NCBI GenBank assembly: GCA_946811185.2
Contig: OX328110.1
Span: 10,582,516-10,646,515 of the forward strand
Direction of reading: 5' to 3'
Source of the DNA: Hippopus hippopus
Taxonomy: Eukaryota; Mollusca; Bivalvia; Cardiida; Cardiidae
Length of the DNA stretch: 64,000 nucleotides
Shown here: piece by piece, positions 5,056 through 61,030 of the stretch
Layout: every line of letters begins with the position of its first letter
Numbering within the stretch: the stretch's first letter is position 1
Notes under the pieces: generated by a model
The model's input: the letters and a program-made list of their open reading frames with translations, nothing else
Databases searched by the model: none
What the model was told of the DNA's origin: nothing
Program-made: the position numbers and the translations under genes

Positions 5056-5309
5056 GTGAAAAAAAGATTTCAATACAATATTGAATATAAACAAAAAAAG
5101 ACTGACTTGATTTTTTCATTCATTTTTGTCTTTACAGTTCATTCATTTTTTACAGTTCATGATTTGATTTTTTTCATTGTACATACGTTCTTTTTGAAAT
5201 AAAAAAATATAAAATAATTACTTCTTACTTTTGATTTTTTTCTAGTTGTGACTGTAAGTCTTTTTACTTTTGACAATTTGAGAAGAAAGATCTTTCGTGC
5301 TAAATGGTT
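5056..5309 (+). promoter_or_regulatory. 3' region of CCHC gene with AATAAA
   Basis: AT-rich stretch with short repeats of TTCATTCATTTTT and an AATAAA at 5198-5203. No histone-type stem-loop belongs to this gene, so it probably uses ordinary polyadenylation. The downstream hairpin at 5310 faces the other strand. Confidence 0.5.
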
Positions 5310-5325
5310 AGCCCTGAAAAGGGCT
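5281..5325 (-). terminator. Histone-type stem-loop and GAAAG element, 3' of the zinc-ribbon gene (A)
   Basis: On the minus strand the sequence reads AGCCCTTTTCAGGGCT (5310-5325), a 6-bp stem with TTTC loop, 32 nt after the stop codon of the gene at 5358-5564. It is followed by AACCAT and, about 12 nt later, ACGAAAGATCTTTC. This matches the layout of metazoan replication-dependent histone mRNA 3' ends (stem-loop, ACCA, purine-rich downstream element). The assignment to that pathway is inference. Confidence 0.65.
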
Positions 5326-5357
5326 TTTTTTGAAGGATCTCACATTGACATCCAGCT

Positions 5358-5564
5358 CTACGATTCTTCCGCCCGATCCACTGGGATGATTTCACACCCA
5401 CAGTGTTCACAGCAAATCGTCGAACCTTCATCATCATCGTAAAATCCTTCATCTGTATCTGGACAGTTATGCTTCTGGCCAAGATACTCAAGTATGGTAA
5501 AACATTTCCCACACTCTATCAGACATCTGCTTGCACAGTGAGGGCACACAAGAATTCGAACCAT
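5358..5564 (-). CDS. Small zinc-ribbon protein (A)
   Basis: 68-aa protein with paired cysteines: CPHCASRC and CGKC near the N-terminus, and CCEHCGC near residue 52, separated by an acidic stretch (DTDEGFYDDDEGS). This suggests a zinc-ribbon-like metal-binding fold, perhaps in transcription or nucleic-acid binding. The family is not recognised. The copy in element B (57121-57327) has the same length and is nearly identical, so the frame is under constraint or recently copied. It has its own TATA promoter upstream and a histone-type stem-loop downstream. Confidence 0.75.
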   Translation of the reverse strand: MVRILVCPHCASRCLIECGKCFTILEYLGQKHNCPDTDEGFYDDDEGSTICCEHCGCEIIPVDRAEES

Positions 5565-5602
5565 TCTGTAACAAATATGATTTTATGTAAAATATCACTG
5601 GG

Positions 5603-5671
5603 CTTTATAGCTTTACAGGAGGATTGAACTAGATGACCCATGACGTCATTTTCTCCTATGTTTTTCCCGCG
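5603..5671 (-). promoter_or_regulatory. Class I promoter (TATA, CRE, E2F-like) of the zinc-ribbon gene (A)
   Basis: Upstream of 5564 on minus: TATA-like CTATAAAG (5604-5611), TGACGTCA (5641-5648) and TTTTTCCCGCG (5661-5671). The same block recurs before five other small-gene copies in elements A and B. Confidence 0.65.
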
Positions 5672-5749
5672 TCGGCGTTTCATTAACATTGTGCATTCAA
5701 ATCGACGGTTATATCGGTGTTTTTTTCACCACTCCCATTTCGATGTCAC

Positions 5750-5912
5750 ACAGTACAACCCCGGTGTTTTCCGCCAGGTCCGCACTCTTTAAAAATTTCA
5801 ATCCTCTGTAAACGTATAAAGCTCGGCGTTATTTTCATACATTCACCATTTCTTTGGTTCTCAGCTAACGATCACTTTGGAAGCAGTATCAATATTCAGA
5901 AGCAGTTTCAAT
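5750..5912 (+). promoter_or_regulatory. Class II promoter and leader of the 220-aa gene (A)
   Basis: Contains CTCTGTAAACGTATAAAG (TATA around 5814), then GCGTTATTTTCATACATTCACC and a leader ending in GCAGTATCAATATTCAGAAG. The same block precedes the 100-aa gene copies (7080-7200, 50439-50570 on minus, 58855-58995) and the B copy of this gene (57535-57674). Confidence 0.6.
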
Positions 5913-6575
5913 ATGAAGCACAACTTAGATGAAATCAACTTGGACGATTTTCCACCAGTGGAAAACAATGGAGACGTTCTTTCATCAGTTATAAATTCGA
6001 CAATCATCAATCCACCACAGGAGTTAAATTCGACAACCATCATTCCAGCGACGGTGTTTGACAACATTTATGAAGAGGTAAAGCAGCTAAATTTGAAGCA
6101 AGATAGCATGATGACCCGGATCATAGATCAGCTGGAGACTTTAAACAGGCATTTGGAGGAAATTAAAACTTTAAGCGCAAGTACTGATCAGCTCAGTAGA
6201 AATATCGAGGTACTACGCCAACAGGATCAGTGCATTTCAACAACTCCTGTGAAGATTCCTGTGGAGTTCGAGTTTGATAAATCCAATCTTCACAAGTTAG
6301 TGGACTCTATCGTAAGTGTTGTGAAGAAAAATCAACCAAAGAAAAAACAACCAGAGGAAAAACAACCAAGAAAAACAACAAAGCGGAAATCTGAGGAAGA
6401 TGCTAACCATCTCCACAAGAAGCAGCGAGTTGATCAAAAACCAACTACACCAATATTGACAGGCCAGGGCAAATACGGGAAAAACATTGACAATCACGTT
6501 GATTTCAAGATCCCGAAAAAACCAAAGACAGAGCGAAAACAACCAAGAAAAAACAACAAAACGGTAGGAATATGA
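5913..6575 (+). CDS. 220-aa coiled-coil and lysine-rich protein (A)
   Basis: The start at 5913 (MKHNLDEINLDDFPP) is chosen because the B copy opens at the same codon and an upstream in-frame ATG lies in leader sequence. Residues 60-115 look like a coiled coil (EEVKQLNLKQDSMMTRIIDQLETL). From about residue 145 the protein is dominated by K, P, Q and R (KKNQPKKKQPEEKQPRK) and ends in a highly basic tail. No known domain is recognised; a DNA-condensing or core-like role is possible but unproven. It is intact in both A and B with few differences. Confidence 0.7.
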   Translation: MKHNLDEINLDDFPPVENNGDVLSSVINSTIINPPQELNSTTIIPATVFDNIYEEVKQLNLKQDSMMTRIIDQLETLNRHLEEIKTLSASTDQLSRNIEVLRQQDQCISTTPVKIPVEFEFDKSNLHKLVDSIVSVVKKNQPKKKQPEEKQPRKTTKRKSEEDANHLHKKQRVDQKPTTPILTGQGKYGKNIDNHVDFKIPKKPKTERKQPRKNNKTVGI

Positions 6576-6589
6576 AAACAAATATGAAA

Positions 6590-6940
6590 CTCGTGGTGTT
6601 TGTGAATTTGCATTGCATAAAATTTGTTATATACTGTTTTGCGATTAATTCATTGTTAATAATTCATTGCGAAAAAAATAATTCATTGTGATTAATTCAT
6701 TGCGATTAATTCATTGTGAATAATTCATTGTTAAGAAATTTTTTCAGTGTGATTTTTTCATTGTTAAGAAAATGTTTTTTATGCTGTATTGTAAAAATGT
6801 TTCCTTGTGATTTTTTTTTCATTGTCAAGAAATTTTTTCATTGTCAAGAAATTTTTTTATGATGCATTGCAAAAAATGTTTCATTGTTTAGTTCTGTTCA
6901 ATAAATAAAAGTTCAATAAATAAAAGTTCAAAAAACAATA
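6590..6940 (+). repeat. AT-rich ATTCATTG repeat array with AATAAA signals
   Basis: Degenerate tandem repeats built on AATTCATTG and TTCATTGTTAAGAAATTTTT follow the 220-aa gene. They end in TTCAATAAATAAAAGTTC twice (6898-6930), giving overlapping AATAAA signals. The same array occurs in both arms of element B (50705-51050 on minus and 58345-58720). Confidence 0.65.
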
Positions 6941-7200
6941 GAGCTCTTCATTCTGTTGTTCCCCAAAGACTTGTTTTGTCTACATTTTTTCCATACATCG
7001 TCTCATAACTTTTTTGCTATATTAGCATGAAACGTAGCATGGAAAAAATGTATGTGCTTTCTGCCAGACCGAGCTCTTTTAAAAATTTCAAGTCTCTGTA
7101 AACGTATAAAGCCCAGCGTTATTTTCACACATTCACCATTTTTGGCTCTCAGCTAACGATCACTTCGGAAGCAGTATCAATATTCGGAAGCAGTATCAAT

Positions 7201-7431
7201 ATGGGGGAGTTAAATTATCAACTACATGAGGCTCTCCAAGAATATCTAAATGCAGGTCAACAGTTATTACAACTAAACACTCACTTTATAGGAGAGGAGA
7301 AATAAAACCAACTACAACCTATAACACAGCTCTACAAAGATCTCGGCGAAAGATTACTTCAACTATTTTTAAAGACAACGTCTGACATCATCTTAGCCAT
7401 TTACCAAGCGAATTTCGGATGTTGTCATTAG
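7201..7431 (+). pseudogene. 100-aa gene homologue, broken (A)
   Basis: Begins MGELNYQLHEALQEYLNAG, homologous to the intact gene at 50133-50438. A TAA appears at about codon 35, and the segment encoding residues 66-90 is partly deleted. The frame then ends ANFGCCH, like the intact gene. The upstream class II promoter and downstream hairpin are retained. Confidence 0.7.
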
Positions 7432-7467
7432 AAGTGGAAAAAAACATAGCCTCCAAAAAAACAAAAC

Positions 7468-7483
7468 AACCCTTTTCAGGGCT
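7468..7483 (+). terminator. Histone-type stem-loop after the broken 100-aa gene (A)
   Basis: AACCCTTTTCAGGGCT, with one mismatch in the stem, is followed by ACCCATCTACCACGAAAG. It lies 37 nt after the remnant stop. The equivalent hairpin in B (50063-50078) is perfectly paired. Confidence 0.5.
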
Positions 7484-7686
7484 ACCCATCTACCACGAAA
7501 GTTCTATCTTTTTTCAAATTGTCAAAAACTCAAAATTGTCAAAAACTCAAAAGATTTACAATCAAAAAAAAGTCATAGATTAGTCAAACTCTAGTTTTTT
7601 TCTAACCCCGAACAAGAAAAAATGCAACAAAGCTGTGGATTGGTCAACAATAAAACATTTAGTATTAGAAATAAAACGTTGATTCT

Positions 7687-7819
7687 GATTGGACAACATT
7701 AATTTTGGAGCCAAAACAGCATGAAACGCCGACGCGGGAAAAACATAGGAGAAAATGACGTCATGGGTCAACTAGTTCAATCCGTCTGAAAAGCTATAAA
7801 ACTCAGCGTCATTTCCCGC
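7687..7819 (+). promoter_or_regulatory. Class I promoter of the 77-aa gene (A)
   Basis: In order: ATTGG (inverted CCAAT, 7687-7691), CGCGGGAAAAA (7732-7742, inverted TTTCCCGCG), TGACGTCA (7756-7763), CTATAAA (7794-7800), and a second TTTCCCGC at 7812-7819 near the likely transcription start. This combination resembles promoters of S-phase genes. Confidence 0.65.
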
Positions 7820-7850
7820 ACATCGTTCATTCTCTTCAATTTACTGCAAT

Positions 7851-8084
7851 ATGGAGTGTGCTTTGAGAGATATGAGCTTCAGCGAGCTTGCGCAGCTGTC
7901 ATCCAAAAAAAAGATGGACGCCAAGAAGATGGAGTTTGTCGCACCATCGACAGAAGGTTGGAACGATGACGCTGAGCCTTCGTTCTCGTTGGACTTTGGG
8001 TTGGACGAACAGCAGTTGAAGAGGCTAAAGAGGCGGGCAGCAAGTAGCTGCCCAGCCTGCAGAAAGGTTGGAGGTTGTGCTTAA
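7851..8084 (+). CDS. 77-aa acidic small protein with terminal cysteines (A)
   Basis: Begins MECALRDMSFSELAQLSSKK. The middle is acidic and aromatic (EGWNDDAEPSFSLDFGLDEQ), followed by a basic stretch (LKRLKRRAA) and CPACRKVGGCA at the end. There are three close homologues in the window (here, 48269-48502, 60177-60410), all open and the same length. The function is unknown; the acidic patch plus CxxC could suit a protein-interaction or regulatory peptide. Confidence 0.75.
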   Translation: MECALRDMSFSELAQLSSKKKMDAKKMEFVAPSTEGWNDDAEPSFSLDFGLDEQQLKRLKRRAASSCPACRKVGGCA

Positions 8085-8104
8085 AAAACACAACCTCCAA
8101 ACCA

Positions 8105-8145
8105 GGTCCTTTTTTAGGACCACCCCAACAGCCCTTTTCAGGGCT
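8105..8145 (+). terminator. Two stem-loops after the 77-aa gene (A)
   Basis: First hairpin GGTCCT-TTTTT-AGGACC (8105-8121), followed by ACCCC. Second hairpin AGCCCTTTTCAGGGCT (8130-8145), followed by AACCATCTACCACGG. The second has the histone-type TTTC loop. Both lie within 61 nt of the stop codon at 8084. Confidence 0.6.
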
Positions 8146-8720
8146 AACCATCTACCACGGAAGATCTACCTTCCTTCAAATTGTCAGACGTAAGTTCTAT
8201 CTTTTCTTCAAATTGTCATTTCTTCAAATTGTCAGACGGAAGTTCTACCTTCAAACTGTTAGACGAAAATTCTATCTTCAAGTTGTCATTTCTTCAAATT
8301 GTCACAGCTCTTTTCAGAGCTAACCCAACAGTCCTTTTCAGGACTAACCATCTACCACGAAAGATCTATCTTCAAGATGTCAGACGAAAGTTCTATCTTC
8401 AAGCTGTCAGACGAAAGTTCTATCTTCAAGTTGTCATTTCTTCAAATTGTCAAAGCTCTTTTCAGAGCTAACTCAACAGTCCTTTTCAGGACTAACCATT
8501 ACCACGAAAGATCTATCTTCAAGATGTCAGACGAAAGTTCTACCTTCAGGCTGTCAGACGAAAGTTCTATCTTCAAGTTGTCATTTCTTCAAATTGTCAC
8601 AGCTCTTTTCAGAGCTAACCCAGCAGTCCTTTTCAGGACTAACCATTACCACGAAAGTTCTATCTTTCTTCAAAATTGTCATTTCTTCAAATTGTCAAAC
8701 TTCTTTTAGAAGAGATGCAC
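8146..8720 (+). repeat. ~148-bp tandem repeat carrying paired histone-type stem-loops (A)
   Basis: About 3.5 units. Each has CGAAAGTTCTATCTTCAAG blocks and TTCTTCAAATTGTCA, then AGCTCTTTTCAGAGCT and AGTCCTTTTCAGGACT hairpins followed by AACCA. Hairpins lie at 8306-8321, 8330-8345, 8454-8469, 8478-8493, 8601-8616 and 8625-8640. The open frames across this region repeat with the DNA unit and are probably not proteins. Confidence 0.75.
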
Positions 8721-8729
8721 TCCAAAAGA

Positions 8730-9900
8730 GTTATACTCCAGAGAGTTATACTGCAAAGAGTAAAAAACTCAGAAAAAGACTAAGTCCAACCCAGTGCTCA
8801 GTCTTTTAGAAAGAAAAAATCATTCATAATTGCGGAAAAAGACTAAGTCCAACTCAATGGTCAACCTTTTAGAAAGAGAGAAAATCATTCATAGGGTGAA
8901 AACAGCTAAGTCCAACTCAGTGATATAGGATAAATTCCTTTTAGAAAAGAGAAATCATTCATAGAGATGCAGAAAAAAGTCTAAGTCCAACTCAATGGTC
9001 AGGCAATTAGAAAGAGAAAAAAATCATACATAGGTGAAGAAAAAACTAAGTACAACTCAGTGCTCAGACATTTAGAAAGAAAAAAGTCTAAGTCCAACTC
9101 AATGGTCAGGCTTTTAGAAAGAGAGAAAATCATTCATAGGGTAAAAAACTAAGTCCAACTCAATGGTCAGGCAATTAGAAAGAGAAAAAATCATCCATAG
9201 GGTGAAAAAACTAAGTCCAACTCAATGTTCAGGCATTTAGAAAGAGAAAAAATCATCCATAGGGTGAAAAAACTAAGTCCAACTCAATGTCCAGGCTTTT
9301 AGAGAGAAACCACTTAAAGGCCAAGTAGTGGATAGAAGTAAACAATAAAGCAATCCTAATAGCATATGGGTAAAAAAACTAAGTCCAACTCAGTGCTCAG
9401 TCTTTTAGAGAAATCATTCATAATTGCAGAAAAAGACTAAGTCCAACTCAGTGATCAGGCTTTTAGAAAGAAAATCATTCATAGGGTAAAAAACATCTAA
9501 GTTCAACTCAATGTTCAGACATTTTGAAAGAGAAATCATCCATAATTGCAGAAAAAGACTAAGTCCAACTCGGTGATCAGGCTTTTAGAAAGAAAATCAT
9601 TCATAGGGTAAAAAAAGTCTAAGTTCAACTCAATGGTTAGGCATTTAGAAAAGAGAATTCATTCATAGAATGAAAAAAGCTAAGTCCAACTCAGTGATAT
9701 AGGGATAAATTCCTTTTAGAAAAGAGAAATCATTCATAGAGATGCAGAAAAAAGTCTAAGTCCAACTCAATGGTCAGGCCTTTAGAGAGAAACCACTTAA
9801 AGGCCAAGTAATGGATAGAAGTAAAACAATAAAGCAATCTTAATAGCATATGGGTAAAAAACTAAGTCCAACTCAGTGACCAGACCTGTCAGATCACTAT
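8730..9900 (+). repeat. ~50-60-bp subterminal tandem repeats (A)
   Basis: Roughly twenty degenerate units with the core CTAAGTCCAACTCAGTGATC followed by CTTTTAGAAAGAGAAAATCA and TTCATAGGG. The same family fills the outer part of both arms of element B. No gene is seen here. Confidence 0.8.
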
Positions 9901-49024: not shown

Positions 49025-49361
49025 TGTGGGATACTGACTCAGGTTTTACGAAAAGTTAATGGTGAATGAGAAAAATAATCAAGAGTTTAGTGTTTTATAT
49101 GTGTAATGGATCACTTTTTAGGCTTTTTTTTTTTTTTTTTTATTTTATTCCTATATCACTGAGTTGAACTTAGTCTTTTTTCTGCAATTATGGATGATTT
49201 TTTCTTTTCTAAAAGACTGAGCACTGAGTCGGGATTAGTCTTTTTCTGAGTTTTTTTACTCTCTGGAGTGTGGACCTTTGGAGTGTAACTCTTTGGGGTG
49301 TAACTCTTCTAAAAGAAAGAAGTTTGACAATTTGAAGAAAGAACTTTCGTGGTAGATGGTT

Positions 49362-49377
49362 AGCCCTGAAAAGGGCT
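49362..49377 (-). terminator. Histone-type stem-loop after the 104-aa gene (B left)
   Basis: Minus strand AGCCCTTTTCAGGGCT 30 nt after the stop at 49408, followed by AACCATCTACCACGAAAG. Confidence 0.65.
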
Positions 49378-49407
49378 GTTTTGAGAAGAGCTGATTTTTG
49401 AAAATGT

Positions 49408-49722
49408 TTATTCAGTATCAGCATCAGTCGATTCGCTGTCTGACTCAGCCCTTTCAGCGGCGATTTGCTCGCGGAAAAGACGGTCTACCTCCTCTGTTTT
49501 TGAAATAACATACTGAAAATACATTTCAAGCATGCCCTCAATAATGAGTTCCTTCATCCGAAGGTTATAACAGAACATCCTGTTATTAGCAAGCTGAGCC
49601 CTCTCGTATCGTCTTCTCACTCCAACCAAGCGCTGTTTAAGTAAAACGATTTGTCTCCTTGCTCTTGTTAACTTTCGCTCGGCATCCATCCAAGTGACGA
49701 GGAGTGATGGTCTTGAAGCCAT
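49408..49722 (-). CDS. 104-aa coiled-coil protein (B left)
   Basis: Begins MASRPSLLVTWMDAERKLTR. The central region is rich in K, R, E and L with heptad-like spacing (LKQRLVGVRRRYERAQ), followed by an acidic tail (AERAESDSESTDADTE). It is probably helical. The right arm keeps only its C-terminal half in a chimera (59135-59275). A class I promoter precedes it. The function is unknown. Confidence 0.65.
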   Translation of the reverse strand: MASRPSLLVTWMDAERKLTRARRQIVLLKQRLVGVRRRYERAQLANNRMFCYNLRMKELIIEGMLEMYFQYVISKTEEVDRLFREQIAAERAESDSESTDADTE

Positions 49723-49754
49723 TGTGAAAAATGAAATGTATGAAAATAAAACGC

Positions 49755-49875
49755 AGAGATTTTATAGTTTTTCAGACGGATTGAACTAGTTGACCCATGA
49801 CGTCATTTTCTCCTATGTTTTTCCCGCGTCGGCGCTTCATGCTGTTTTGGCTCCAAATTATTGTTATCCAATCAG
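49755..49875 (-). promoter_or_regulatory. Class I promoter of the 104-aa gene (B left)
   Basis: TTTATAG near 49761, TGACGTCA at 49798-49805, TTTTTCCCGCG at 49818-49828 and CCAATCAG at 49868-49875. Confidence 0.65.
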
Positions 49876-50062
49876 AATTATCGTTTTTTTTTTTTTTTTT
49901 TATACTAAATGTTTTATTGTTGACCAATCTATAGTTTTGTTGCATTTTTTCTTGTTCGGGATAGAAAAAACTAGAGTTTGACTATTTTATGACTTTTTTG
50001 ATTGTAAATCTTTTGAGTTTTGACAATTTTAAAAAAAGATAGAACTTTCGTGGTAGATGGGT

Positions 50063-50078
50063 AGCCCTGAAAAGGGCT
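50063..50078 (-). terminator. Histone-type stem-loop after the 100-aa gene (B left)
   Basis: Minus strand AGCCCTTTTCAGGGCT followed by ACCCATCTACCACGAAAG, 54 nt after the stop at 50133. Confidence 0.65.
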
Positions 50079-50132
50079 GTTTTGTTTTGGAGGCTGTGTT
50101 TTTTTTTCGTCTCACGTTGTTTTTCTCCACTT

Positions 50133-50438
50133 CTAATGACAGCACCCGTAATTCGCTTGACAAATGGGGCATGCTTCAACTCTTTTTCTGATCACCATTG
50201 CTCCATTATCGAAAGTAATCTTTCTCCCAAATTCGATATCAACCAAAATGACATCCGGTATTGTCTTTAAAAATAGTTGAACTAATCTTTCGCCGAGATC
50301 TTTGTATGGCTGTGTTATACGTTGTAGTTGATTTTGTTCCTCCTCTCCTACGAGATGAGTGGATAGTTGCAATAACTGTTGACCGGCATTTAGATATTCT
50401 TGGAGAGCCTCACGTAGTTGATGATTTACCTCCTCCAT
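50133..50438 (-). CDS. ~101-aa small protein with C-terminal CxxC/CCH (B left)
   Basis: The start MEEVNHQLREALQEYLNAG (50438) is preferred over an in-frame ATG nine codons upstream, because the homologous leader elsewhere ends at this codon. The N-terminal half is helical and Q/L-rich. The C-terminus CPICQANYGCCH suggests metal binding. This is the only intact copy: 7201-7431 is broken and 58996-59157 is truncated. Confidence 0.65.
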   Translation of the reverse strand: MEEVNHQLREALQEYLNAGQQLLQLSTHLVGEEEQNQLQRITQPYKDLGERLVQLFLKTIPDVILVDIEFGRKITFDNGAMVIRKRVEACPICQANYGCCH

Positions 50439-51053
50439 ATTGATATTGTTTCCGAATATTGACACTGCTTTCGAAGTGATCGTTAGCTGAGAGCCAAAGA
50501 AATGGTGATTGTATGAAAATAACGCTGGGCTTTATACGTTTACAGAGGATTGAAATTTTTAAAGAGCTCGGACCTGGCAGAAAGCACATACATTTTTTTC
50601 CATGCTACGTTTCATGCTAATATAGCAAAAAAGTTATGAGACGCTGTATGGAAAAAATGTAGACAGAACAAGTCTTTGGGGAAAAAACAGAATGAAGAGC
50701 TCTATTGTTTTTTGAACTTTTATTTATTGAACTTTTATTTATTGAACAGAACTAAACAATGAAACATTTTTTTTGCAAAGCATCATAAAAAATTTCTTGA
50801 CAGTGAAAAAAATTCACAAGGAAACATTTTTTACAATACAGCATAAAAAACAATTTCTTAACAATGAAAAAAAATCACACTGAAACATTTTTACAATACA
50901 GCATAAAAACAATTTCTTGACAATGAAAAAAATCACACTGAAATATTTTTTTCGCAATGAATTATTTACAATGAAAAAAATCATAATGAATTATTTTTTC
51001 GCAATGAATTATTTACAATGAATTATTCGCAAAACAGTATATAACAAATTTTT

Positions 51054-51707
51054 TTACAATGCAAATTCGCAAATACCACGAGTTTCACATTTGTTTTCAT
51101 ATTCCGTAATGTCTTTATGCAATTGGTCATACCCAAAAAACATTGTATACTCACCGTCCATATCGTCGAAATCTCGTAGTCCTATGAATGGAGCAACATG
51201 TCTAAAAGCGTCTTTTGTTGAAAGAGCTGAATTCACTACTTCTTCTGTAACATCTCTATCAAATAGAATATACCCTGACATAGTTTCCATTGTTTCTCCG
51301 TAGGAATGAACAGATCCTTTTTTGTACCGTAAGTAAAAGTCAAATAGAACTGATTTCATTTTCAGAACGTTAAGAAAACTTTCTTCTGTTCTTCCTATGA
51401 TAAAAAATGTCCATCGACTTGTGGATCGAAACAGTTTACTAATAACATTGTCTTTCAAGCAGCTATCTGCTAAATGAGTCTTGAGATCGAGATCAAAACC
51501 CGAATCGTCCACCATCATCGCAATAAAGTTGATTATGCCATACACTTTGTAGGACTTTTCTCCTTTTGCAACCCATTTAAACATTTTTTTGATCCAAATT
51601 TTCACACAGAAAAATTTAATGTTAAGCTGTGTTCGTTCATCAAGCGTATGCTGTCGAACAAATTCTCCATAAATTTTTTCACGTAGTTCTATTGGTAACG
51701 GTAACAT
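51054..51707 (-). CDS. 217-aa protein of unknown function (B)
   Basis: Starts MLPLPIELREKIYGEFVRQH, a helical beginning that loosely recalls F-box-like openings (LP.EL...I). The rest has mixed helices (FFCVKIWIKKMFKWVAKGEK, AFRHVAPFIGLRDFDDMDG) and no motif I can name. It lies 76 nt downstream of PolB on the same strand without an obvious TATA box, so it may share the PolB transcript. Its last 17 codons lie in the inverted arm and match non-coding sequence after the 220-aa gene, so the arm boundary cuts through its end. Confidence 0.6.
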   Translation of the reverse strand: MLPLPIELREKIYGEFVRQHTLDERTQLNIKFFCVKIWIKKMFKWVAKGEKSYKVYGIINFIAMMVDDSGFDLDLKTHLADSCLKDNVISKLFRSTSRWTFFIIGRTEESFLNVLKMKSVLFDFYLRYKKGSVHSYGETMETMSGYILFDRDVTEEVVNSALSTKDAFRHVAPFIGLRDFDDMDGEYTMFFGYDQLHKDITEYENKCETRGICEFAL

Positions 51708-51783
51708 GATTGTTTTTTGACCAACGGCTAATATTTTTCCTGACTTACTTTGACTGATTGGTACACAACAATGTGATATAAAA

Positions 51784-54700
51784 TTATTTTCTCAAATTTT
51801 TATAACCATAGGGTACAGTATCAGTACCATTTACAATAACTCTCTTGGTGTATACAGAGCGAAACGTTTTTGTTTGTGGTTCACTGGTAACCGTTCTATC
51901 TCTGTGTCTTTTAATTCTACAATCATACTGAATTTTGATTTCTATTGTGCGATCCAAAGCACATTTCGAATATGTATCGAAATTTACCACCTGTTTTGTA
52001 TTGTAATCCAGAGTAATCCCCTTTACTTTACATTTGCTTATCTCTTCTCCATCTTTTGTTTTCATTTTGTAAGCATAATTCTTAGGCCCAAGTCCTCTGA
52101 ATTGAGTAATTTTACAAGCAGGCTCTTCATCAGTCCATTTTCCTAGTCGGCTGTTAATAATAGGAGGATTCCATAATTCAGGGTCGTGAATGTACATACA
52201 ACTATCTGTATCGAAATACAGAACTCTATCTTTTAACTTTTCAAGAACGCTGTACAATTCCAACCTTGCATAAGCTGTTACATAAGACCCTACTACCACA
52301 TTGGCTGTAGCATGGGTGTCAATATGTTCCAACTTTGATTCATAGTTAACCAAGATGAATGAACAGTCCTCGTCAAAGATTTCTACATGCTTTACAATGA
52401 AATTGGGATTGGTGACTAATTCAAAATATTTAGACGGATCACTGATGTATTCCGTCTGGGACATTTTTTCACGCTGAGCTAATTTTCCCCAAAGACAGTT
52501 CAACATAATCTTAGCAAATGATCTTCTCCCAGGATTTTTTTGAATACAACTTGGATCAAGACGAACACCTTCCGCCTTCTCATATTCACAAACGAACTGA
52601 TCTTTTTCTGAGTCTGATTGACACCAATCTGGATAACCACTGGCTTCTTGCTTAATTTTCAAGAAATTGTCCACATAATGTTTAAAGAACTGATCTGATA
52701 CAGAATTGAAATGCCAAATTTCATACACTTGCAATAATCGATAACCACAGTCAAGAGCCTTGAATAATTCAAAAGTAACCCAAGTTCCAACCAAAGCCCT
52801 CTCTTCTTTACCATGCCTACAAATGTTTGAGCTTTCTTCTGCACATTTCATACAGAGTGTAAACATCATTTTGTTGTTACAGTGAACTGGGAGAACGGGG
52901 TGAAACAAATCAGTTGGAGGTAAAACTTTACACTTGATTAATCCCTCATATTGTCGAATATTGTTCATATCAATATTCTCAGCAGACAAAATTTTTGGCT
53001 GACCTACAGGGTAGGATTTGGTTTACAAACATAAGGGTATAGAGAACAGATATCGATGTACTTGATTTCCTTTTTGTTTTTTTTTTTTTTTTTCATCAAC
53101 ATCATATCCAATTTTTATTGCATTACATCTTCCCCCGGACAAACCATCCGTCGGATCGATAGGGTCCCAATGTGGATATAACTTTTCAATGAGTTTTTTG
53201 TACTCTTTATCCTTCATCTTAGCATCAAATTCGTGTTCCCAAATGTACACTACATCATATCCCATTTCTTCGATATCTGCTATACGTTCAAAGGTACGTT
53301 CGTACAATTCAGACATGGGTTTTCCATTAATAGGATTGATCTGTTTTCGATCTGTATAGCATACAGGACAACCATGATACAAATCCCCAAGAAATTCATA
53401 AACAGTGTTTGATTGACGGTGAAAACCATCTACACTATATTTCCCGATTTGAGCTTCACCACCATTTTTTGCATGCTGAATATTAATACCTTTTTCCTGA
53501 GCTACGCTTTGAACCCATCGTATCGCTTTCATAGAAAAGCGACGTCTGGATGAGTCTTTACTTGAAATGATAGTTATTTGATTTTCTGGTAAATATTTGC
53601 TTCGCCACACCTTGTTACAGGCATCTGCGATGGTAATCGCCTCTAAAAATGGACAAATACCACCCTGTTCGATAAACAGCTTTCTGAATTCAGCACACCC
53701 TCGTCTGAGGATATCAACATCTGACCTACAGTACAATTCCATCTCCTTCTGAAAATTGAATTCTTCAACATTTCGAACTTTGTCATTATACCAAACTATG
53801 AATTTTGACCTAGCCTCTTCAGACATTGAGTCGGGTTTGTAATAAGACATATCCAAGTAGGGCCCAATGTAACTCCAAAATTCATCTGTATTTGCCGAGT
53901 GAGGAAAGTAACCTTTTTTCATTTCTTGAAGACCAAAGGTGGGTGGAAATTTTGCCAAACCAAAACTCATGAAATTGAAAGAATCGATCAGACGTACACC
54001 ATTCAGTTCTAACTTCATAATATTGTTTCCATTCATGATCAATTTTTGAAGTTTTAACCCAACTTTGACAATATAGTCAAGAATGAACTGACCATCATAG
54101 CCTTTGAAATTATGGGCAATAGCCGTAACTCCTTTATGATGTTTTGAAAAGAGCCAGTTGCAAAATTGACTCAAAGTTTCTTCACCTTGAAAAATAACTT
54201 CCCTACCCTCTTCAAATTCACTGCATGTAGAACAATGAAAATCAAGTGATTTATCGATACATTCATCACACGCTCTGTGTGCGATACAATAATTCGGGAT
54301 GTGTACCCCTGTGTCTTGTTTGCATTCAAAATCAAAGAAAATAAACTGTGGTTTTTTGACTACAGAAGAACTCGTCTCGTCATCGCTGTCATGGTTCAAC
54401 TTACTTTGGTAAGGTTGAATATAGCATCGATGAGAAAAGTTAACAATTCTCTTACAGATATGACATCTTTTCTTTCCATTGCAAACATGATTTTTCTTTC
54501 TGACATGATATTGTGCACCGCATTTCGAACAGAGTTTTACTAATTCACAAATGGATTTCTTTTCTTTACCTTGAACAATTCTGTGATTTTCAAAGCATTC
54601 AGCACAAAAAAATCGTCTATTGCAATAACTGCAAACATATTCTTTTGATTTTGATGGACATTTTCCTTTGCGGTAACAACCTTTGCAGATATTTGAACAA

Positions 54701-55782
54701 GCATGATTTTCCCGGTTAGAGTAACCCACATCACAGAATTCACAATAATATCCACAACTAAGAAAACCTTTGATAGATTTGATGTAGTCATAATGGTTTT
54801 GATGAAAGTACAAATGTATGATCTTACTATTGGTTTTCACTTCTGGATGTTTAAATATTTTTTCCACTTTTGAATGCTGTTGATGAACTTTAATGACATA
54901 GCCTTTTTCATACAAGAATGTTTGAATTTTTTTGTATTCATCAATTCCTACAGGCTGTGTTGGCGAAACTCCAGCTTCATTTAACAATTTCTCAGCTTCA
55001 GTCTTTTGAAGAGGGCGTTTTGAACGACAAATACGATCCCATTTTCTATTCCATGCTTCGGTGTTTTCACGTTCACGGTAGCAAATTCCCACAACAACGG
55101 CTCTTGCGAAACATAGTTGGTCATGACTGTAAATTTGAATAATAGATTTTTTCTTCCGGACAAAAAACTTTGAATCTAATTCTGATGATCTATATTTTTG
55201 TTTTCCGCTACCTCTTGGTGGTATTGTATGTGTAATGTCAAATGTCATGAGTCCATCGTTCAAGACGAAATCTGTATTCGATTGTAAAACTCGTTCAATT
55301 TCATTCAGCATAGTTTCACCTTGTAACTGGTCTGCAGCTAAAAAAGGAATATGGATTCCCATTTCCAACGAAGGATGATTGATGGTAATTCTAATCATGT
55401 CCGTCGGGTTAGCATTTAACTTTCGAATGATTTCATGGGTAACATCGTCAAATAATCCAAGTAGTCTCTGAGATGTTAATTCTTCAAATTTCTTAAAACT
55501 CAGCATCAGCACATGTGATTCTGTTTTAAATTTTCTTGACTTCTTATTACCCCTTTCTGTTAAATCATATAGACTTTTCATGTCTAAGTTAGAGTTGATA
55601 CTTTCATCGTCGCTGTCATTTTCTTCTTTCAACGGTCTAGTTTTTTTCTTTTTTATTGGTGGAAATATCTCATCGTCACTTTCTTCTTTCAACGGTCTAG
55701 TTTTTTTCTTTTTTGTTGTTGGAAATACCTCATCGTCACTTTCGCTGTCTGAATAGGTTATTATTCTTTTTCTTTTACCCAT
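51784..55782 (-). pseudogene. DNA polymerase B, element B copy, frameshifted
   Basis: Same family as 44-4034. The N-terminal portion is open from 55782 (MGKRKR; nuclear-type basic/acidic repeats, zinc cluster, Exo I-III). The C-terminal portion (51784-52989) carries polymerase motifs B (KIMLNCLWGKLAQR) and C (YFDTDSC). Between about 53010 and 53095 the frame is lost: one base is missing near 53022, and a T run at 53078-53092 is longer than in copy A. This falls at motif A (SLYP). Neither lesion of copy A is present here. Confidence 0.9.
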
Positions 55783-55940
55783 CGTTTTAGCTCTGAGTGA
55801 AAAGACAATAATGCAGAAGTGAGAAAAAACTAACAATTTATATAGCCTCTCCGTTGTAACAGTGTATAAATAGAGACGATAGTTGTGAAAATCTAATCAT
55901 TCTCCTACTCAATCTCAGACAGTACAGCTGATAAAAGAAT
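55783..55940. promoter_or_regulatory. Divergent promoter of PolB and CCHC gene (B)
   Basis: Back-to-back TATA boxes: TATATAAAT on minus near 55840 and TATAAATAG on plus near 55866, as in element A. Confidence 0.7.
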
Positions 55941-56801
55941 ATGAGCGAGTTAAAGCTGCAAAATACATCACCACTTAGAAAGAGGGTGTATCTGTATGTT
56001 AATCCATACACCCACGATTATGAGATCAGCAATATACCATCAAAGTATGATGTTAAACATATCGGAAACTATGTGGGATCATTTTTATCCCACCAACATT
56101 TAGAAGAAAAAGATGTTTACCGTACTACCAGATACAGAGTTTTGGATCAAGCGACGATTGACAAACGATATGGTGTGAATGGCAAGAGAACAAATATTTG
56201 TTTCACATGCAACGAAGCAGGACATTGGGCCAAAGAATGTCCAGAAAAAGAAAATCAGCTAGGAACATTTGTTTTTGTCTACGTGAATCCACACAGTCAT
56301 GACATTGAGATTTTACCATCGTTTTACAACGTTGATGGTCTCAAAGATATAAAATTCGTCGGGACACTAAATTCATTCTGCAGTGAAAATACATGGAAAA
56401 AAAGTTCACCACAAGCTACATCATCATCGGTTGAAAGTCAGACCGTAGACATGCAGTCCGACACGATGGATATCAACGATTCAGAAATCTGCAAAATAAC
56501 AGAACAGGTAGAGAAAAAAATATCTACAATACGAAAAAATCTAAGAAAACAACAAACTTTGGATCTAAGAAAACAACAAACTTTGGATCTAAAAAACAAC
56601 GAATTTTCTACAGAACCGGGTTGCTCGTACGGAGAGGAAAAACAGCAAAACAACGAAAAGAACTGTTTCTTTTGCAAATCAACAAAACACGAGGATAAAA
56701 TCTGTCCAGATGTGGTATTAAAAACCAACGAAAGGAAAAGAAAACGTAAAACCAAATGTGAATCTGACATTCCAAAGAAAAAAAGAAAACATACTGAGTG
56801 A
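55941..56801 (+). CDS. Zinc-knuckle (CCHC) protein, element B copy
   Basis: 286 aa. Both knuckles are intact here: CFTCNEAGHWAKEC near residue 90 and CFFCKSTKHEDKIC near residue 238, each C-x2-C-x4-H-x4-C. The N-terminus has the duplicated YVNP..HD.EI module. A repeated RKQQTLDL element lies near residues 200-217 and the tail is basic (KKKRKHTE). AATAAA near 56947 is the likely poly(A) signal. Compared with A there are scattered substitutions and small indels but no break. Confidence 0.82.
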   Translation: MSELKLQNTSPLRKRVYLYVNPYTHDYEISNIPSKYDVKHIGNYVGSFLSHQHLEEKDVYRTTRYRVLDQATIDKRYGVNGKRTNICFTCNEAGHWAKECPEKENQLGTFVFVYVNPHSHDIEILPSFYNVDGLKDIKFVGTLNSFCSENTWKKSSPQATSSSVESQTVDMQSDTMDINDSEICKITEQVEKKISTIRKNLRKQQTLDLRKQQTLDLKNNEFSTEPGCSYGEEKQQNNEKNCFFCKSTKHEDKICPDVVLKTNERKRKRKTKCESDIPKKKRKHTE

Positions 56802-57074
56802 AAAAAGATTTCAACACAATATTGAATTTAAACAAAAAAAGACTGACTTGATTTTTTTCATTCATTTTTTGTCTTTACAGTTCATTCATTTTTTGTCTTT
56901 ACAGTTCATGATTTGATTTTTTCATTGTACATAAGTTCTTTTTGAAATAAAGAAATATAAAATAATTACTTCTTACTTTTGACTTTTTTCTAGTTGTGAC
57001 TTTTTTCTAGTTGTGACTGTAAGTCTTTTTACTTTTGACAATTTGAAAAGAAAGATCTTTCGTGCTAAATGGTT

Positions 57075-57090
57075 AGCCCTGAAAAGGGCT
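57075..57090 (-). terminator. Histone-type stem-loop after the zinc-ribbon gene (B)
   Basis: Minus strand AGCCCTTTTCAGGGCT 30 nt after the stop at 57121, followed by AACCATTTAGCACGAAAG and ATCTTTC. Confidence 0.65.
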
Positions 57091-57120
57091 TTTTGAAGGA
57101 TCTCACATTGACATCCAGCT

Positions 57121-57327
57121 CTACGATTCCTCCGCCCGATCCACTGGGATGATTTCACACCCACAGTGTTCACAGCAAATCGTCGAACCTTCATCATCAT
57201 CGTAAAATCCTTCATCTGGATCTGGACAGTTATGTTTCTGCCCAAGATACTCAAGTATAGTAAAACATTTTCCACACTCTATCTGGCATCTGCTTGCACA
57301 GTGAGGGCATACAAGAATTCGAACCAT
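57121..57327 (-). CDS. Small zinc-ribbon protein (B)
   Basis: 68 aa, nearly identical to the copy at 5358-5564, with all paired cysteines retained (CPHCASRC, CGKC, CCEHCGC). Few amino-acid changes (for example CLIECGKC to CQIECGKC, and TDEG to PDEG). Confidence 0.75.
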   Translation of the reverse strand: MVRILVCPHCASRCQIECGKCFTILEYLGQKHNCPDPDEGFYDDDEGSTICCEHCGCEIIPVDRAEES

Positions 57328-57364
57328 CCTGCAACAAATATGTTTTTTATGTAAAATATCGCTG

Positions 57365-57434
57365 GGCTTTATAGCTTTACAGGGGATTGAACTAGTTGAC
57401 CCATGACGTCATTTTCTCCTATGTTTTTCCCGCG
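57365..57434 (-). promoter_or_regulatory. Class I promoter of the zinc-ribbon gene (B)
   Basis: CTATAAAG on minus near 57368, TGACGTCA at 57404-57411 and TTTTTCCCGCG at 57424-57434. Confidence 0.65.
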
Positions 57435-57674
57435 TCTGCGTTTCATTAACATTGCCCAATTAAATCGATAGTTATATTGGTGTTTTTTACCACTCCTAAT
57501 TCGGTGTCACACAGTTCAATCCTGGTGTTTTCCGTCAGGTCCGTACTCTTTAAAAATTTCAATCCTCTGTAAACGTATAAAAACTCAGCGTTATTTTATA
57601 CAAAACACCATTTCTTTGATTCTCAGCTAACGATCACTTCGAAAGCAGTATCAATATTCAGAAGCAGTTTCAAT

Positions 57675-58337
57675 ATGAAGCACAACTTAGATGAAATCAA
57701 CTTGGACGATTTTCCACCAGTGGAAAACAATGGAGACGTTCTTTCATCAGTTATAAATTCGACAATCATCAATCCGCCACCGGAGTTAAATTCGACAACC
57801 ATCATTCCAGCGACGGTGCTGGACAACATCTATGAAGAGGTAAAGCAGCTAAATTTGAAACAAGATAGCATGATAACCCGGATCATAGATCAGCTGGAGA
57901 CTTTAAACAGACATTTGGAGGAAATTAAAACTTTAAGCGCAAGTACTGATCAGCTCAGTAGAAATATCGAGGTACTACGCCAACAGGATCAGTGCATTTC
58001 AACAACTCCTGTGAAGATCCCTGTGGAGTTCGACTTTGATAAATCCAATCTTCACAAGTTAGTGGACTCTATCGTAAGTGTTGTGAAGAAAAATCAACCA
58101 AAGAAAAAACAACCAGAGAAAAAACAACCAAGAAAAACAACAAAACGGAAATCTGAGGAAGATGCTAGCCATCTCCACAAGAAACAGCGAGTTGATCAAA
58201 AACCAACTACACCAATATTGACAGGCCAGGGCAAATACGGGAAAAACATTGATAATCACGTTGATTTCAAGATCCCGAAAAAACCAAAGACAGAGCGAAA
58301 ACAACCAAGAAAAAACAACAAAACGGTAGGAATATGA
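57675..58337 (+). CDS. 220-aa coiled-coil and lysine-rich protein (B)
   Basis: Same length and start as 5913-6575, with about a dozen substitutions. The coiled-coil region is followed by (K/Q/P)-rich repeats and a basic end (RKQPRKNNKTVGI). A class II promoter lies upstream. The last few codons sit at the inner edge of the inverted arm. Confidence 0.7.
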   Translation: MKHNLDEINLDDFPPVENNGDVLSSVINSTIINPPPELNSTTIIPATVLDNIYEEVKQLNLKQDSMITRIIDQLETLNRHLEEIKTLSASTDQLSRNIEVLRQQDQCISTTPVKIPVEFDFDKSNLHKLVDSIVSVVKKNQPKKKQPEKKQPRKTTKRKSEEDASHLHKKQRVDQKPTTPILTGQGKYGKNIDNHVDFKIPKKPKTERKQPRKNNKTVGI

Positions 58338-58995
58338 AAACAAATATGAAACTCGTGGTATTTGCGAATTTGCATTGTAAAAAAAATTGTTAGATACTGT
58401 TTTGCGAATAATTCATTGTAAATAATTCATTGCGAAAAAATAATTCATTATGATTTTTTTTCATTGTGAATAATTCATCGTGAAAAAAATATTTCAGTGT
58501 GATTTTTTTCATTGTCAAGAAATTGTTTTTATGCTGTATTGTAAAAATGTTTCAGTGTGATTTTTTTTTCATTGTTAAGAAATTGTTTTTTATGCTGTAT
58601 TGTAAAAAATGTTTCCTTGTGAATTTTTTTCACTGTCAAGAAATTTTTTATGATGCTTTGCAAAAAAAATGTTTCATTGTTTAGTTCTGTTCAATAAATA
58701 AAAGTTCAATAAATAAAAGTTCAAAAAACAATAGAGCTCTTCATTCTGTTTTTTCCCAAAAGACTTGTTCTGTCTACATTTTTTCCATACATCGTCTCAT
58801 AACTTTTTTGCTATATTAGCATGAAACGTAGCATGGAAAAAATGTATGTGCTTTCTGCCAGGTCCGAGCTCTTTAAAAATTTCAATCCTCTGTAAACGTA
58901 TAAAGCCCAGCGTTATTTTCATACATTCACCATTTTTTGGCTCTCAGCTAACGATCACTTCGGAAGCAGTATCAATATTCGGAAGCACTATCAAT

Positions 58996-59157
58996 ATGGA
59001 GGAGGTAAATCATCAACTACGTGAGGCTCTCCAAGAGTATCTAAATGCAGGTCAACAGTTATTACAACTAAACACTCATCTCGTAGGAGAGGAGGAACAA
59101 AACCAACTACAACGTATAACACAGCCCTACAAAGATGATCATTGCAGCCACACTTGA
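58996..59157 (+). pseudogene. Truncated 100-aa gene at an arm deletion (B right)
   Basis: Starts MEEVNHQLREALQEYLNAG like 50438 but runs into foreign sequence after RITQPYKD at about 59133, where the deletion joins it to the 104-aa gene. Confidence 0.7.
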
Positions 59158-59275
59158 AATGTATTTTCAGCATGCTAATACAAAAAGTGAACAGTTAGAC
59201 CGTCTTTTCCGCGAGCAAATCGCCGCTGAAAGGGCTGAGTCAGACAGCGAATCGACTGATGCTGATACTGAATAA
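59135..59275 (+). pseudogene. Truncated 104-aa gene, C-terminal half (B right)
   Basis: A 46-codon frame begins with an ATG near the deletion joint and shares LEMYFQ and LFREQIAAERAESDSES with 49408-49722. The residues between them differ more (HANTKSEQLD versus YVISKTEEVD), so this arm may carry a divergent allele here rather than a simple deletion of the left sequence. Confidence 0.6.
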
Positions 59276-59305
59276 ACATTTTCAAAAATCAGCTCTTCTC
59301 AAAAC

Positions 59306-59321
59306 AGCCCTTTTCAGGGCT
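59306..59321 (+). terminator. Histone-type stem-loop (B right, after the 104-aa remnant)
   Basis: AGCCCTTTTCAGGGCT 30 nt after the stop at 59275, followed by AACCATCTACCACGAAAG. Confidence 0.65.
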
Positions 59322-59653
59322 AACCATCTACCACGAAAGTTCTTTCTTCAAATTGTCAAACTTCTTTCTTTTAGAAGAGTTACACCCCAAAGAGTTACAC
59401 TCCAAAGGTCCACACTCCAGAGAGTAAAAAAACTCAGAAAAAGACTAATCCCGACTCAGTGCTCAGTCTTTTAGAAAAGAAAAAATCATCCATAATTGCA
59501 GAAAAAAGACTAAGTTCAACTCAGTGATATAGGAATGAAATTAAAAAAAAAAAAGCCTAAAAAGTGATCCATTACACATATAAAACACTAAACTCTTGAT
59601 TATTTTTCTCATTCACCATTAACTTTTCGTAAAACCTGAGTCAGTATCCCACA

Positions 59654-59794
59654 ATGTTTGGATTAACATTTTTTCTCTTATTGCTCTTCTGGTTAGAAGA
59701 AAGAGAACGTTTCAGATATATCAGGCATGAAATTGACCATCTAATGCAAATGCTAGATAAAATGGAATCAATCAAAAGAAAGAGAGGAGGATAA
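59654..59794 (+). CDS. 46-aa single-pass membrane-type peptide (B right)
   Basis: Identical frame to 48884-49024. TATA-like ACATATAAAAC lies near 59576-59586, about 70 nt upstream. The hairpin AACCCTTTTCAGGGCT follows at 59824-59839. Confidence 0.55.
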   Translation: MFGLTFFLLLLFWLEERERFRYIRHEIDHLMQMLDKMESIKRKRGG

Positions 59795-59823
59795 AAAAAG
59801 TGCATTCTGTACAAAAAAAAAGC

Positions 59824-59839
59824 AACCCTTTTCAGGGCT
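59824..59839 (+). terminator. Histone-type stem-loop after the 46-aa gene (B right)
   Basis: AACCCTTTTCAGGGCT, 29 nt after the stop codon, with one stem mismatch like its mirror copy. Confidence 0.5.
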
Positions 59840-60009
59840 AGCTATCTTAAATAAACATCTTTCTTTTCATTTTGTCAGAAGACTCATAATCAAAAAAAAA
59901 GTCATAGGTTAGTTAAACTTTAGTTTTTTCTAAACCCGAACAAGAAAATGTAACAAAGCCATGGGTTGGTCAACAATAAAACATTTAGTATTAGAAATAA
60001 AACGCTGAT

Positions 60010-60140
60010 TCTGATTGGACAACATTAATTTGGAACCAAAACAGCATGAAACGCCGACGCGGGAAAAATATAGGAGAAAATGACGTCATGGGTCAACTAG
60101 TTCAATCCGTCTGAAAAGCTATAAAACCCAGCGTTATTTT
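60010..60140 (+). promoter_or_regulatory. Class I promoter of the 77-aa gene (B right)
   Basis: CTGATTGGAC (inverted CCAAT) at 60011-60020, CGCGGGAAAAA near 60059, TGACGTCA at 60081-60088, CTATAAAAC near 60120, and TTTTCCCGC near 60137. Confidence 0.65.
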
Positions 60141-60176
60141 CCCGCACATCATTCATTCTCTTCAAGTCGTTAAGAA

Positions 60177-60410
60177 ATGGAGTGCGCATTGAGGGATATG
60201 ACTTTTTCGGAACTCGCCCAGCTGGCATCGAGAGAAAAAAAGAAGAAGGAGAAAAAACAGTTCACAGTACCAGCTACTGAAGATTGGAACGATGACGATG
60301 AGCCATCGTTCTCGTTGGACTTCGGCTTGGACGAGCAGCAACTGAAAAGACTAAAGAGGAGGGCTGCAAGTAGCTGTCCGGCGTGCAGGAAGGTTGGAGG
60401 TTGTGCTTAA
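60177..60410 (+). CDS. 77-aa acidic small protein (B right)
   Basis: Begins MECALRDMTFSELAQLASRE and ends CPACRKVGGCA, like the two other copies. Stem-loops GGTCCT..AGGACC (60430-60447) and AGCCCTTTTCAGGGCT (60456-60471) follow directly. Confidence 0.75.
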   Translation: MECALRDMTFSELAQLASREKKKKEKKQFTVPATEDWNDDDEPSFSLDFGLDEQQLKRLKRRAASSCPACRKVGGCA

Positions 60411-60429
60411 AAACACAACCTCCAAACCA

Positions 60430-61030
60430 GGTCCTTTTTTTAGGACCACCCCAACAGCCCTTTTCAGGGCTAACCATCTACCACGAAAGTTCTACCTTTC
60501 TTCAAATTGTCAGACGTAAGTTCTATCTTTTCTTCAAATTGTCATTTCTTCAAATTGTCAGACGAAAGTTCTACCTTCAAGCTATCAGACGAAAGTTCTA
60601 TCTTCAAGTTGTCATTTCTTCAAATTGTCACAGCTCTTTTCAGAGCTAACCCAACAGTCCTTTTCAGGACTAACCATCTACCACGAAAGTTCTATCTTCA
60701 AGATGTCAGACGAAAGTTCTACCTTCAAGCTATCAGACGAAAGTTCTATCTTCAAGTTGTCATTTCTTCAAATTGTCACAGCTCTTTTCAGAGCTAACCC
60801 AACGGTCCTTTTCAGGACTAACCATCTACCACGAAAGTTCTATCTTCAAGATGTCAGACGAAAGATCTATTTTCAAGCTGTCAGACGAAAGTTCTATCTT
60901 CAAGTTGTCATTTCTTCAAATTGTCACAGCTCTTTTCAGAGCTAACCCAACAGTCCTTTTCAGGACTAACCATTACCACGAAAGTTCTATCTTTCTTCAA
61001 AATTGTCATTTCTTCAAATTGTCAAACTTC
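60430..61030 (+). repeat. Stem-loop-bearing ~148-bp repeat array (B right)
   Basis: Hairpins at 60430-60447, 60456-60471, 60632-60647, 60656-60671, 60780-60795, 60804-60819, 60928-60943 and 60952-60967. At 60804 the outer pair is G-T (GGTCC..GGACT), still able to pair as G-U in RNA. Confidence 0.75.

Follow-up and report, generated by a model that had tools for sequence, protein, structure and literature searches.

Putative host-type histone 3' ends on the small genes of Maverick-like elements in the bivalve Hippopus hippopus

Why should genes of a mobile DNA element end as histone genes do? The question is raised by a 64,000-nucleotide (nt) stretch of the Hippopus hippopus genome (GenBank assembly GCA_946811185.2, contig OX328110.1, positions 10,582,516 to 10,646,515, forward strand; all of it is called the window below), which contains two Maverick-like elements, A and B, whose small genes are followed by a stem with a TTTC loop and by a GAAAG block. 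To our knowledge, 3' ends of this type are hardly ever found outside the replication-dependent histone genes. From comparison with the host's own histone genes we consider it probable that the small genes of these elements (encoding a zinc-ribbon protein and proteins of 101, 104 and 77 amino acids (aa), and in some copies one of 220 aa) have working histone 3' ends of the host type and are routed through the host pathway. Histone genes themselves are served by an arrangement of SLBP, the U7 small nuclear ribonucleoprotein (snRNP) and CPSF73 that carries out the cleavage (PMC7026596).

The elements hold 25 hairpins that fit RGYYCT-TTTC-AGRRCY, with four stem types: 8 AGCCCT/AGGGCT, 8 AGCTCT/AGAGCT, 7 AGTCCT/AGGACT and 2 GGTCCT/AGGACT, the last with an outer G-U pair. 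A first-pass annotation of the window had counted at least 25 six-pair TTTC hairpins on the coding strand, and we confirm 25; they lie on the + strand in the right-hand parts of the elements and on the - strand in the left-hand parts, which is the direction of the neighbouring genes in 25/25 cases. Perfect six-pair TTTC hairpins number 24 in the window, 23 of them within the elements, against a mean of 0.56 and a maximum of 3 per window in first-order Markov sequences (100 runs). An A-rich CCA flank is present at 23/24 of these observed hairpins and at none in the simulation, and CGAAAG follows within 45 nt in 13/24; the perfect hairpin that lies outside the elements (34556, +) is without the flank and without GAAAG. 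The pattern TTTCN6ACCA, with 10 matches versus 4.4 expected, was judged a poor test and set aside. The 25 hairpins are not independent, since terminal inverted repeats (TIRs) double genes and hairpin arrays, the arrays are tandem, and A and B are copies; about four independent gene ends are present in the window, those of the zinc-ribbon, 100/101-aa, 104-aa and 77-aa genes.

The first-pass annotation had likened the GAAAG block to the downstream element of histone genes, and the H1, H2A, H2B, H3 and H4 genes of this host do have the same layout. A PF00125 profile search of the genome (1.07 Gb, 34 contigs; 150 matches scored) placed a tandem histone cluster at C15:40.57-41.47 Mb, on the window's own contig, with four listed matches elsewhere, and we took host gene ends from two (L042 and L043) of three stretches retrieved. 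Their stem-loops lie 28-39 nt past the stop codon and read GGCCCT-TTTA-AGGGCC (H2A, H3, H4), GGCCCT-TATC-AGGGCC (H2B) or GGTCCT-TTTC-AGGACC (H1); 11-12 nt past the stem comes the downstream element, which is GAAAG in H2B, GAGAG in H1 and H3, GAAAA in H4 and just GAATT in H2A. One 78-nt 3' end is common to 30/30 H3 loci retrieved. All five host genes also have a TGTCA block (mostly ATTGTCA) 18-22 nt past the downstream element. The element ends are laid out in the same manner, with GAAAG 12-13 nt past the stem and TGTCA a further 19-24 nt on; TGTCA stands at that distance from ACGAAAGWTCT in 28/32 element sites, many of them tandem copies, versus 2.7% of random positions. This third block is absent from the first-pass list and is newly recognised here; it is perhaps a site of extended U7 pairing. 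By BLASTN the host 3' ends nearest to the element are those of H2B (E=1.5e-5, 82% across 45 nt) and H1 (E=1.9e-4, 75% across 65 nt); many other short alignments, one at the same E-value, look like low complexity by their repetition. Within the host cluster we also observed an H4 copy with a doubled downstream element (L043:1661-1727), and a histone repeat unit (L042:5171-8987) that contains open reading frames (ORFs) of 744 and 566 aa, the first resembling an endonuclease of long interspersed nuclear elements by eye.

A covariance model, R1, was made from the five host histone ends only. Host ends score 70-75 bits with it, by construction; the highest score otherwise in 60 kb is 15.2 bits, save for the H4 variant just mentioned, which reaches 45.1 bits instead of 75. 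In the window R1 gave 23 matches at E<=1, of which 20 are element hairpin sites at E<=0.01 (best 50.8 bits, E=3.3e-9), and the remaining three (E 0.058-0.87) lie at 21578, outside the elements, and at two places in element A. When R1 was applied to 30 loci around GAAAG sites on contig C1, 27/30 contained a match with E<=5.5e-5, the best scoring 54.9 bits; the remaining three, L053, L054 and L064, have no element gene and gave no match or one at E=0.85. A profile of the host downstream region without the stem had 12 window matches at E<=1, all in elements, 11 directly past a hairpin and 1 inside the array of element A; with a best E of 0.013 it is consistent with the likeness, if weak match by match.

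Intact ends, with R1 scores in brackets here and below, were found behind four kinds of gene. That of the zinc-ribbon gene of element B (gene at 57121..57327, -) spans 57030..57097 (-), with the stem-loop at 57075-57090, GAAAG at 57053-57063 and then ATTGTCA (42.6 bits, E=2.7e-7), and that of element A spans 5265..5333 (-; stem-loop 5310-5325; 46.9 bits, E=2.7e-8). The 100/101-aa gene of B ends at 50015..50086 (-; stem-loop 50063-50078; 44.8 bits, and 28.5 bits with the Rfam model RF00032). The 104-aa gene has its end in the left TIR at 49317..49385 (-; stem-loop 49362-49377; 50.8 bits, E=3.3e-9), and in the right TIR at 59298..59366 (+; stem-loop 59306-59321; 50.8 bits) behind a 46-aa frame. 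For the 77-aa gene the ends lie in the left TIR at 48162..48232 (-; stem-loop 48209-48224; 39.1 bits), in the right TIR at 60448..60518 (+; stem-loop 60456-60471; 38.8 bits) and in element A at 8122..8192 (+; stem-loop 8130-8145; 34.5 bits). In element B the stop-to-stem distances are 30 nt (zinc-ribbon), 54 nt (101-aa), 30 nt (104-aa) and 44-45 nt (77-aa). The first-pass statement that hairpins stand shortly after stop codons is upheld for these four genes; its fifth class, a separate 46-aa gene with an intact hairpin, falls away, for that frame is really what is left of the 104-aa gene in the right TIR, where it is truncated. A GAAAG block had been claimed behind each gene-end hairpin, and 6/8 intact ends have it; the other 2/8 have a variant block, CGGAAG at the 77-aa end of A (variant CGGAAGATCT) and CGAAAATTCT at the 77-aa end in the left TIR of B.

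Are these stems under constraint, or could they be a relic? The sequences show signs of constraint on the stem. Among 21 distinct hairpins of host and element, 96.8% of cells are paired, the covariation score is 0.303 and two-sided changes occur in 11 cells; none of these values was reached in 500 shuffles, and slid controls are at most 60.3% paired. In 75 hairpins with pairs 1, 3 and 4 free, a pattern that omits stems broken elsewhere such as those of L057 and L065, these pairs are Watson-Crick in 68, G-U in 7 and broken in 0. The observation that stem variants change on both sides together holds frequently. At the 104-aa gene ends of L048 and L062, for instance, the two hairpins are distinguished solely by a change at both sides of one pair. 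The element at C1:3.589-3.600 Mb (L055-L058) is divergent, with proteins 42-74% identical, and keeps 3/4 gene-end stems intact; at one of its ends (L056) the 16-nt hairpin is identical to that of B amid a stop-to-stem stretch that is unlike B's by eye. Over the C1 loci with a site, the hairpin lies 23-79 nt past a stop codon in 22/27, behind five different genes; at the other five another or a disrupted frame was taken. An ancestral element might instead have acquired a fragment of host DNA from a histone 3' end and carried it along unused, and the many window copies that are TIR or tandem duplicates, like the decayed ends (46-aa, 101-aa of A, L057, L065), would suit such passive hitch-hiking. 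The intact stems of the divergent element, the L056 hairpin, the paired changes and the placement behind five genes all speak against it, and we regard it as very improbable.

A number of observations, given in this paragraph and the next, weigh against the view that the hairpins are working histone-type ends. In the window, four stems have one broken pair each (7468 +, 59824 +, 48855 - and 48048 -). One pair is also broken in the fourth stem of the divergent element (L057), and in the set of 30 loci the stem of L065 is broken too. Neither the count of pairs that show a two-sided change (3; reached by 44/500 shuffles) nor that of pair types (484/500) is significant, some of the paired changes could come from recent copying and gene conversion from the arrays, and the 30 loci, having been chosen for an intact GAAAG site, are uninformative on constraint of that block. 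Scoring with RF00032, which the first-pass annotation had put forward, gave a divided result: 18/36 Rfam rows at E<=10 in the window are matches to this model, and every one of them lies at an element site (the best with 28.5 bits, E=5.5e-4). However, 18/18 fail to reach the gathering score of 34 and only 5/18 have E<0.01, and on other hairpins of the window E-values of this order are also obtained with unrelated microRNA models. Since 8/9 host ends in L042 and L043 also fall below 34 (30.0-33.7), the RF00032 score does not separate host from element here; the 3' module, as we read it, would function as a histone 3' end does; it matches the host version, and by the curators' score is not a member of RF00032. 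A host U7 small nuclear RNA (snRNA) was not found with RF00066, for which the best match was 25.9 bits (E 0.77; 65 of 398,645 candidates scored); this best match, L009, was rejected by eye as having no U7-like 3' hairpin. An Sm-site pattern for U7 gave 50 matches versus 47 in the control, and 20/50 were inspected by eye and by fold, none of them U7-like. The outer pair of the stem is A-U in 15/16 distinct element rows and G-U in 1, while it is G-C in 5/5 host genes, and SLBP affinity for the elements is possibly lower on that account. The second pair of the stem matters more than the outer one. A host SLBP gene is present on C11 (two exons match PF15247, at 60.7 and 33.1 bits, with no internal stops; translation inspected), and the earlier proposal that the elements borrow SLBP and U7 is supported to this extent, by the histone-type ends and by the presence of SLBP.

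Polyadenylation signals also count on the opposing side. A hexamer (AATAAA or ATTAAA) lies within 300 nt past the hairpin at 10/27 hairpin loci, so that polyadenylation is a possible alternative there, and AATAAA stands between the chosen stop and the hairpin at 6/27. In the 104-aa gene AATAAA spans the stop codon, and the closest hexamer behind PolB of B, 163 nt past the stop, is inside the next (217-aa) ORF. The 101-aa gene has a hexamer at 214 nt. The hexamers of the 101-aa and 104-aa genes and of the 10/27 loci, the arrays that separate the outermost gene from the terminus on either side, and human H2AC18, which can be processed either way (PMC9756948), would fit a rival proposal, that the histone signal was captured as a compact cleavage and termination site with no S-phase logic and possibly with polyadenylation downstream. 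We hold this termination-only proposal to be rather unlikely: the zinc-ribbon and 77-aa genes of B have no AATAAA or ATTAAA within 500 nt past the stop, and a promoter motif common to three of the four hairpin genes hints at regulation. That motif, GACGTCAT-GGGTCAACTAGTT and then a TATA box, is shared by the zinc-ribbon, 104-aa and 77-aa genes. Its second part was allowed up to 2 changes, and its matches in the window (GACGTCATGGGTCAACTAGTT; 5639 -, 7765 +, 48589 -, 49796 -, 57402 - and 60090 +) precede hairpin-bearing genes in 6/6 cases; the 101-aa gene has the hairpin without the motif.

The genes with other ends form a second group. PolB and the CCHC gene are transcribed divergently, have other upstream sequences and are without a hairpin, and a polyadenylation hexamer lies 144 nt past the stop of the CCHC gene. 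The 220-aa gene (57675..58337, +) is likewise without a hairpin in the window, where hexamers lie 355-374 nt past its stop. The first-pass annotation had set these three genes apart as lacking the hairpin, which is right for the window; in four other copies (L047, L049, L058 and L059) the 220-aa gene has one, 23-79 nt past the stop. Because copies of this gene have or lack the hairpin, and because the 46-aa gene has a broken stem together with AATAAA, the type of gene end appears to change during element evolution. The 46-aa gene (48884-49024, -, and 59654-59794, +) seems to have switched from a histone-type end to polyadenylation: its decayed end in the left TIR (48794..48863, -; 23.0 bits, E=0.01) has pair 2 broken and AATAAA in GAAAG's place with TTTTGTCA retained, and the copy in the right TIR (59816..59885, +) is like it. 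Human H2AC18 and H1C (PMC9756948) are similar in that a poly(A) signal overlaps the downstream element, and unlike it in that histone processing still functions there, whereas the stem of the 46-aa gene is also broken. A remnant 101-aa end in element A (7460..7530, +; 39.7 bits) has stem pair 2 broken and retains GAAAG and TGTCA.

If the small genes do use the host pathway, established histone biology suggests that host SLBP would bind the element stem-loop, that U7 snRNP would pair with the GAAAG block and that CPSF73 would cut between the two. The resulting mRNAs would have no poly(A), would depend on SLBP for translation and would be destroyed as S phase ends, so that element messages would be active when SLBP is present, i.e. 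in S phase. PolB and CCHC presumably use poly(A), and the genes of the elements would then form two classes, comparable to early and late ones, the second tied to DNA replication. Arrays sit downstream of the 77-aa gene, toward each terminus: in element A at 8221..8666 (+; 3 units x 147 bp, each a stem-loop pair with GAAAG and TGTCA blocks), and, built in the same way from 3 units x 148 bp, in the left TIR of B at 47687..48133 (-; the stem at 48033-48048 has one broken pair) and in the right TIR at 60547..60993 (+). Behind the AGCTCT hairpins of the arrays the second hairpin comes next, with GAAAG not directly behind. Standing between the outermost gene and each terminus, the arrays could be fail-safe cleavage sites against read-through into host DNA. 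The position of the arrays in TIRs along with other tandem repeats might also suggest inverted repeats that bind a replication, packaging or transposition protein as DNA. Such DNA-level sites are, to our mind, extremely improbable, for the hairpins of the zinc-ribbon and 101-aa genes are not within the 2.78-kb TIRs, and loop and downstream blocks track gene direction and match host histone ends.

Genome-wide, ACGAAAGWTCT occurs 17,135 times versus 2,564 times for the reversed pattern; with 23 sites in element B, the excess is very roughly 630 element equivalents. So large an excess, and arrays that multiply the downstream block, could favour a decoy, in which the abundant stem-loops and GAAAG blocks of the elements would sequester SLBP or U7 snRNP at the expense of the host's histone mRNAs. 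A decoy would need high transcription, and the placement at gene ends is explained otherwise; we think it improbable. Returning to gene ends that work through the host pathway, we put forward tentatively, at slightly under an even chance, the wider proposal that an element lineage, probably with hundreds of genomic copies, has placed a whole late-type gene class on the histone-mRNA pathway, tail-less and locked to S phase, with arrays capping both ends, and may compete for SLBP and U7.

Relatives were sought in two further collections. None was found in viral_contigs with the 101-aa protein, a PolB piece, the zinc-ribbon alignment or the CCHC alignment; the histone-type pattern had 1 match there, without GAAAG or TGTCA past the hairpin in the 120 nt around it, and the element-type pattern had 0 matches in genome_contigs and 0 in viral_contigs. 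A zinc-ribbon relative, P0037, is annotated in a metagenome-assembled genome of Candidatus Thiodiazotropha, and as a query found none in genome_contigs. Candidatus Thiodiazotropha bacteria live in lucinid clams. The contig of P0037 may thus be clam host DNA, and bivalves may contain related elements. Among the open-licence PMC papers listed for the two subjects, we found none that joins mobile elements with histone-type 3' ends. If our reading is true, an integrating DNA element would have its gene expression tied to replication of the host's DNA. Such genes would escape RNA sequencing that relies on poly(A) selection. The element would also be a natural reporter of what the histone pathway needs, as the outer pair differs and the downstream element is common, and the third block, shared by host histones and element genes, would be a candidate functional signal.

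Element B (46748..61926, strand not assigned) is 15.2 kb long with both ends in view; its TIRs are 2.78 kb each (98.8% identity), its termini are AGTAGTATAGG and its 6-bp target duplication is GTTACT. Element A (1..9879, strand not assigned) has its left end beyond the window, and is 94.6% identical to B across 7.4 kb. Both have a type-B DNA polymerase sequence (PF03175, E=6.5e-44; PHROG 1907, E=7.2e-51 in element A). Each also encodes a CCHC protein, as well as small proteins for which Pfam gave nothing informative. The PolB region of B (51784..55782, -) consists of two open frames, 53023-55782 and 51784-52968, and the CCHC zinc-knuckle gene lies at 55941..56801 (+). A PDB sequence search gave no match with PolB, and with the CCHC protein top matches that cover the zinc knuckle alone; the predicted fold of the latter (mean predicted local distance difference test score 54) was discarded as evidence. 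A long palindrome stands just inside each terminus of B (46758-46809 and 61865-61916), which surfaced as weak mir-4788 matches. The right end of A meets a Pao/BEL retrotransposon (9930-16212; ORF of 1762 aa), and 16169-16227 resembles by eye an element terminus with its own palindrome. The window also holds a 196-bp satellite (6.2 copies, 38838-40054) and a 28-bp minisatellite (27.6 copies, 62304-63077).

How do these elements compare with known systems? Like metazoan histone 3' ends (RF00032 plus downstream element), theirs have a six-pair stem, a four-base loop, an AAC/AAA 5' flank, an ACCA/ACCCA-type 3' flank and a purine element 11-13 nt past the stem, and they match this host's histone genes down to TGTCA; unlike them, they stand on non-histone genes of a mobile element, have an outer A-U pair, score below the RF00032 gathering threshold and are arrayed. 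Histone genes of Caenorhabditis elegans (PMC1924863) have a hairpin, a conserved AATCC element and a polyadenylation signal, and so share the presence of an extra conserved block downstream of the hairpin, but the block is another one and the genes are those of a host rather than of a mobile element. With Mavericks (Polintons) the elements share a PolB that by sequence resembles protein-primed polymerases, a length of 15.2 kb, long TIRs and a 6-bp target duplication. No retroviral-type integrase was recognised in the element ORFs scanned; rve occurs solely in the Pao/BEL element (10500-15788). No capsid, ATPase or protease matched in those ORFs with Pfam or PHROGs. We call elements A and B Maverick-like, because the PolB, TIRs and target duplication are present but integrase and capsid genes are unrecognised; from Mavericks they differ further in having histone-type gene ends.

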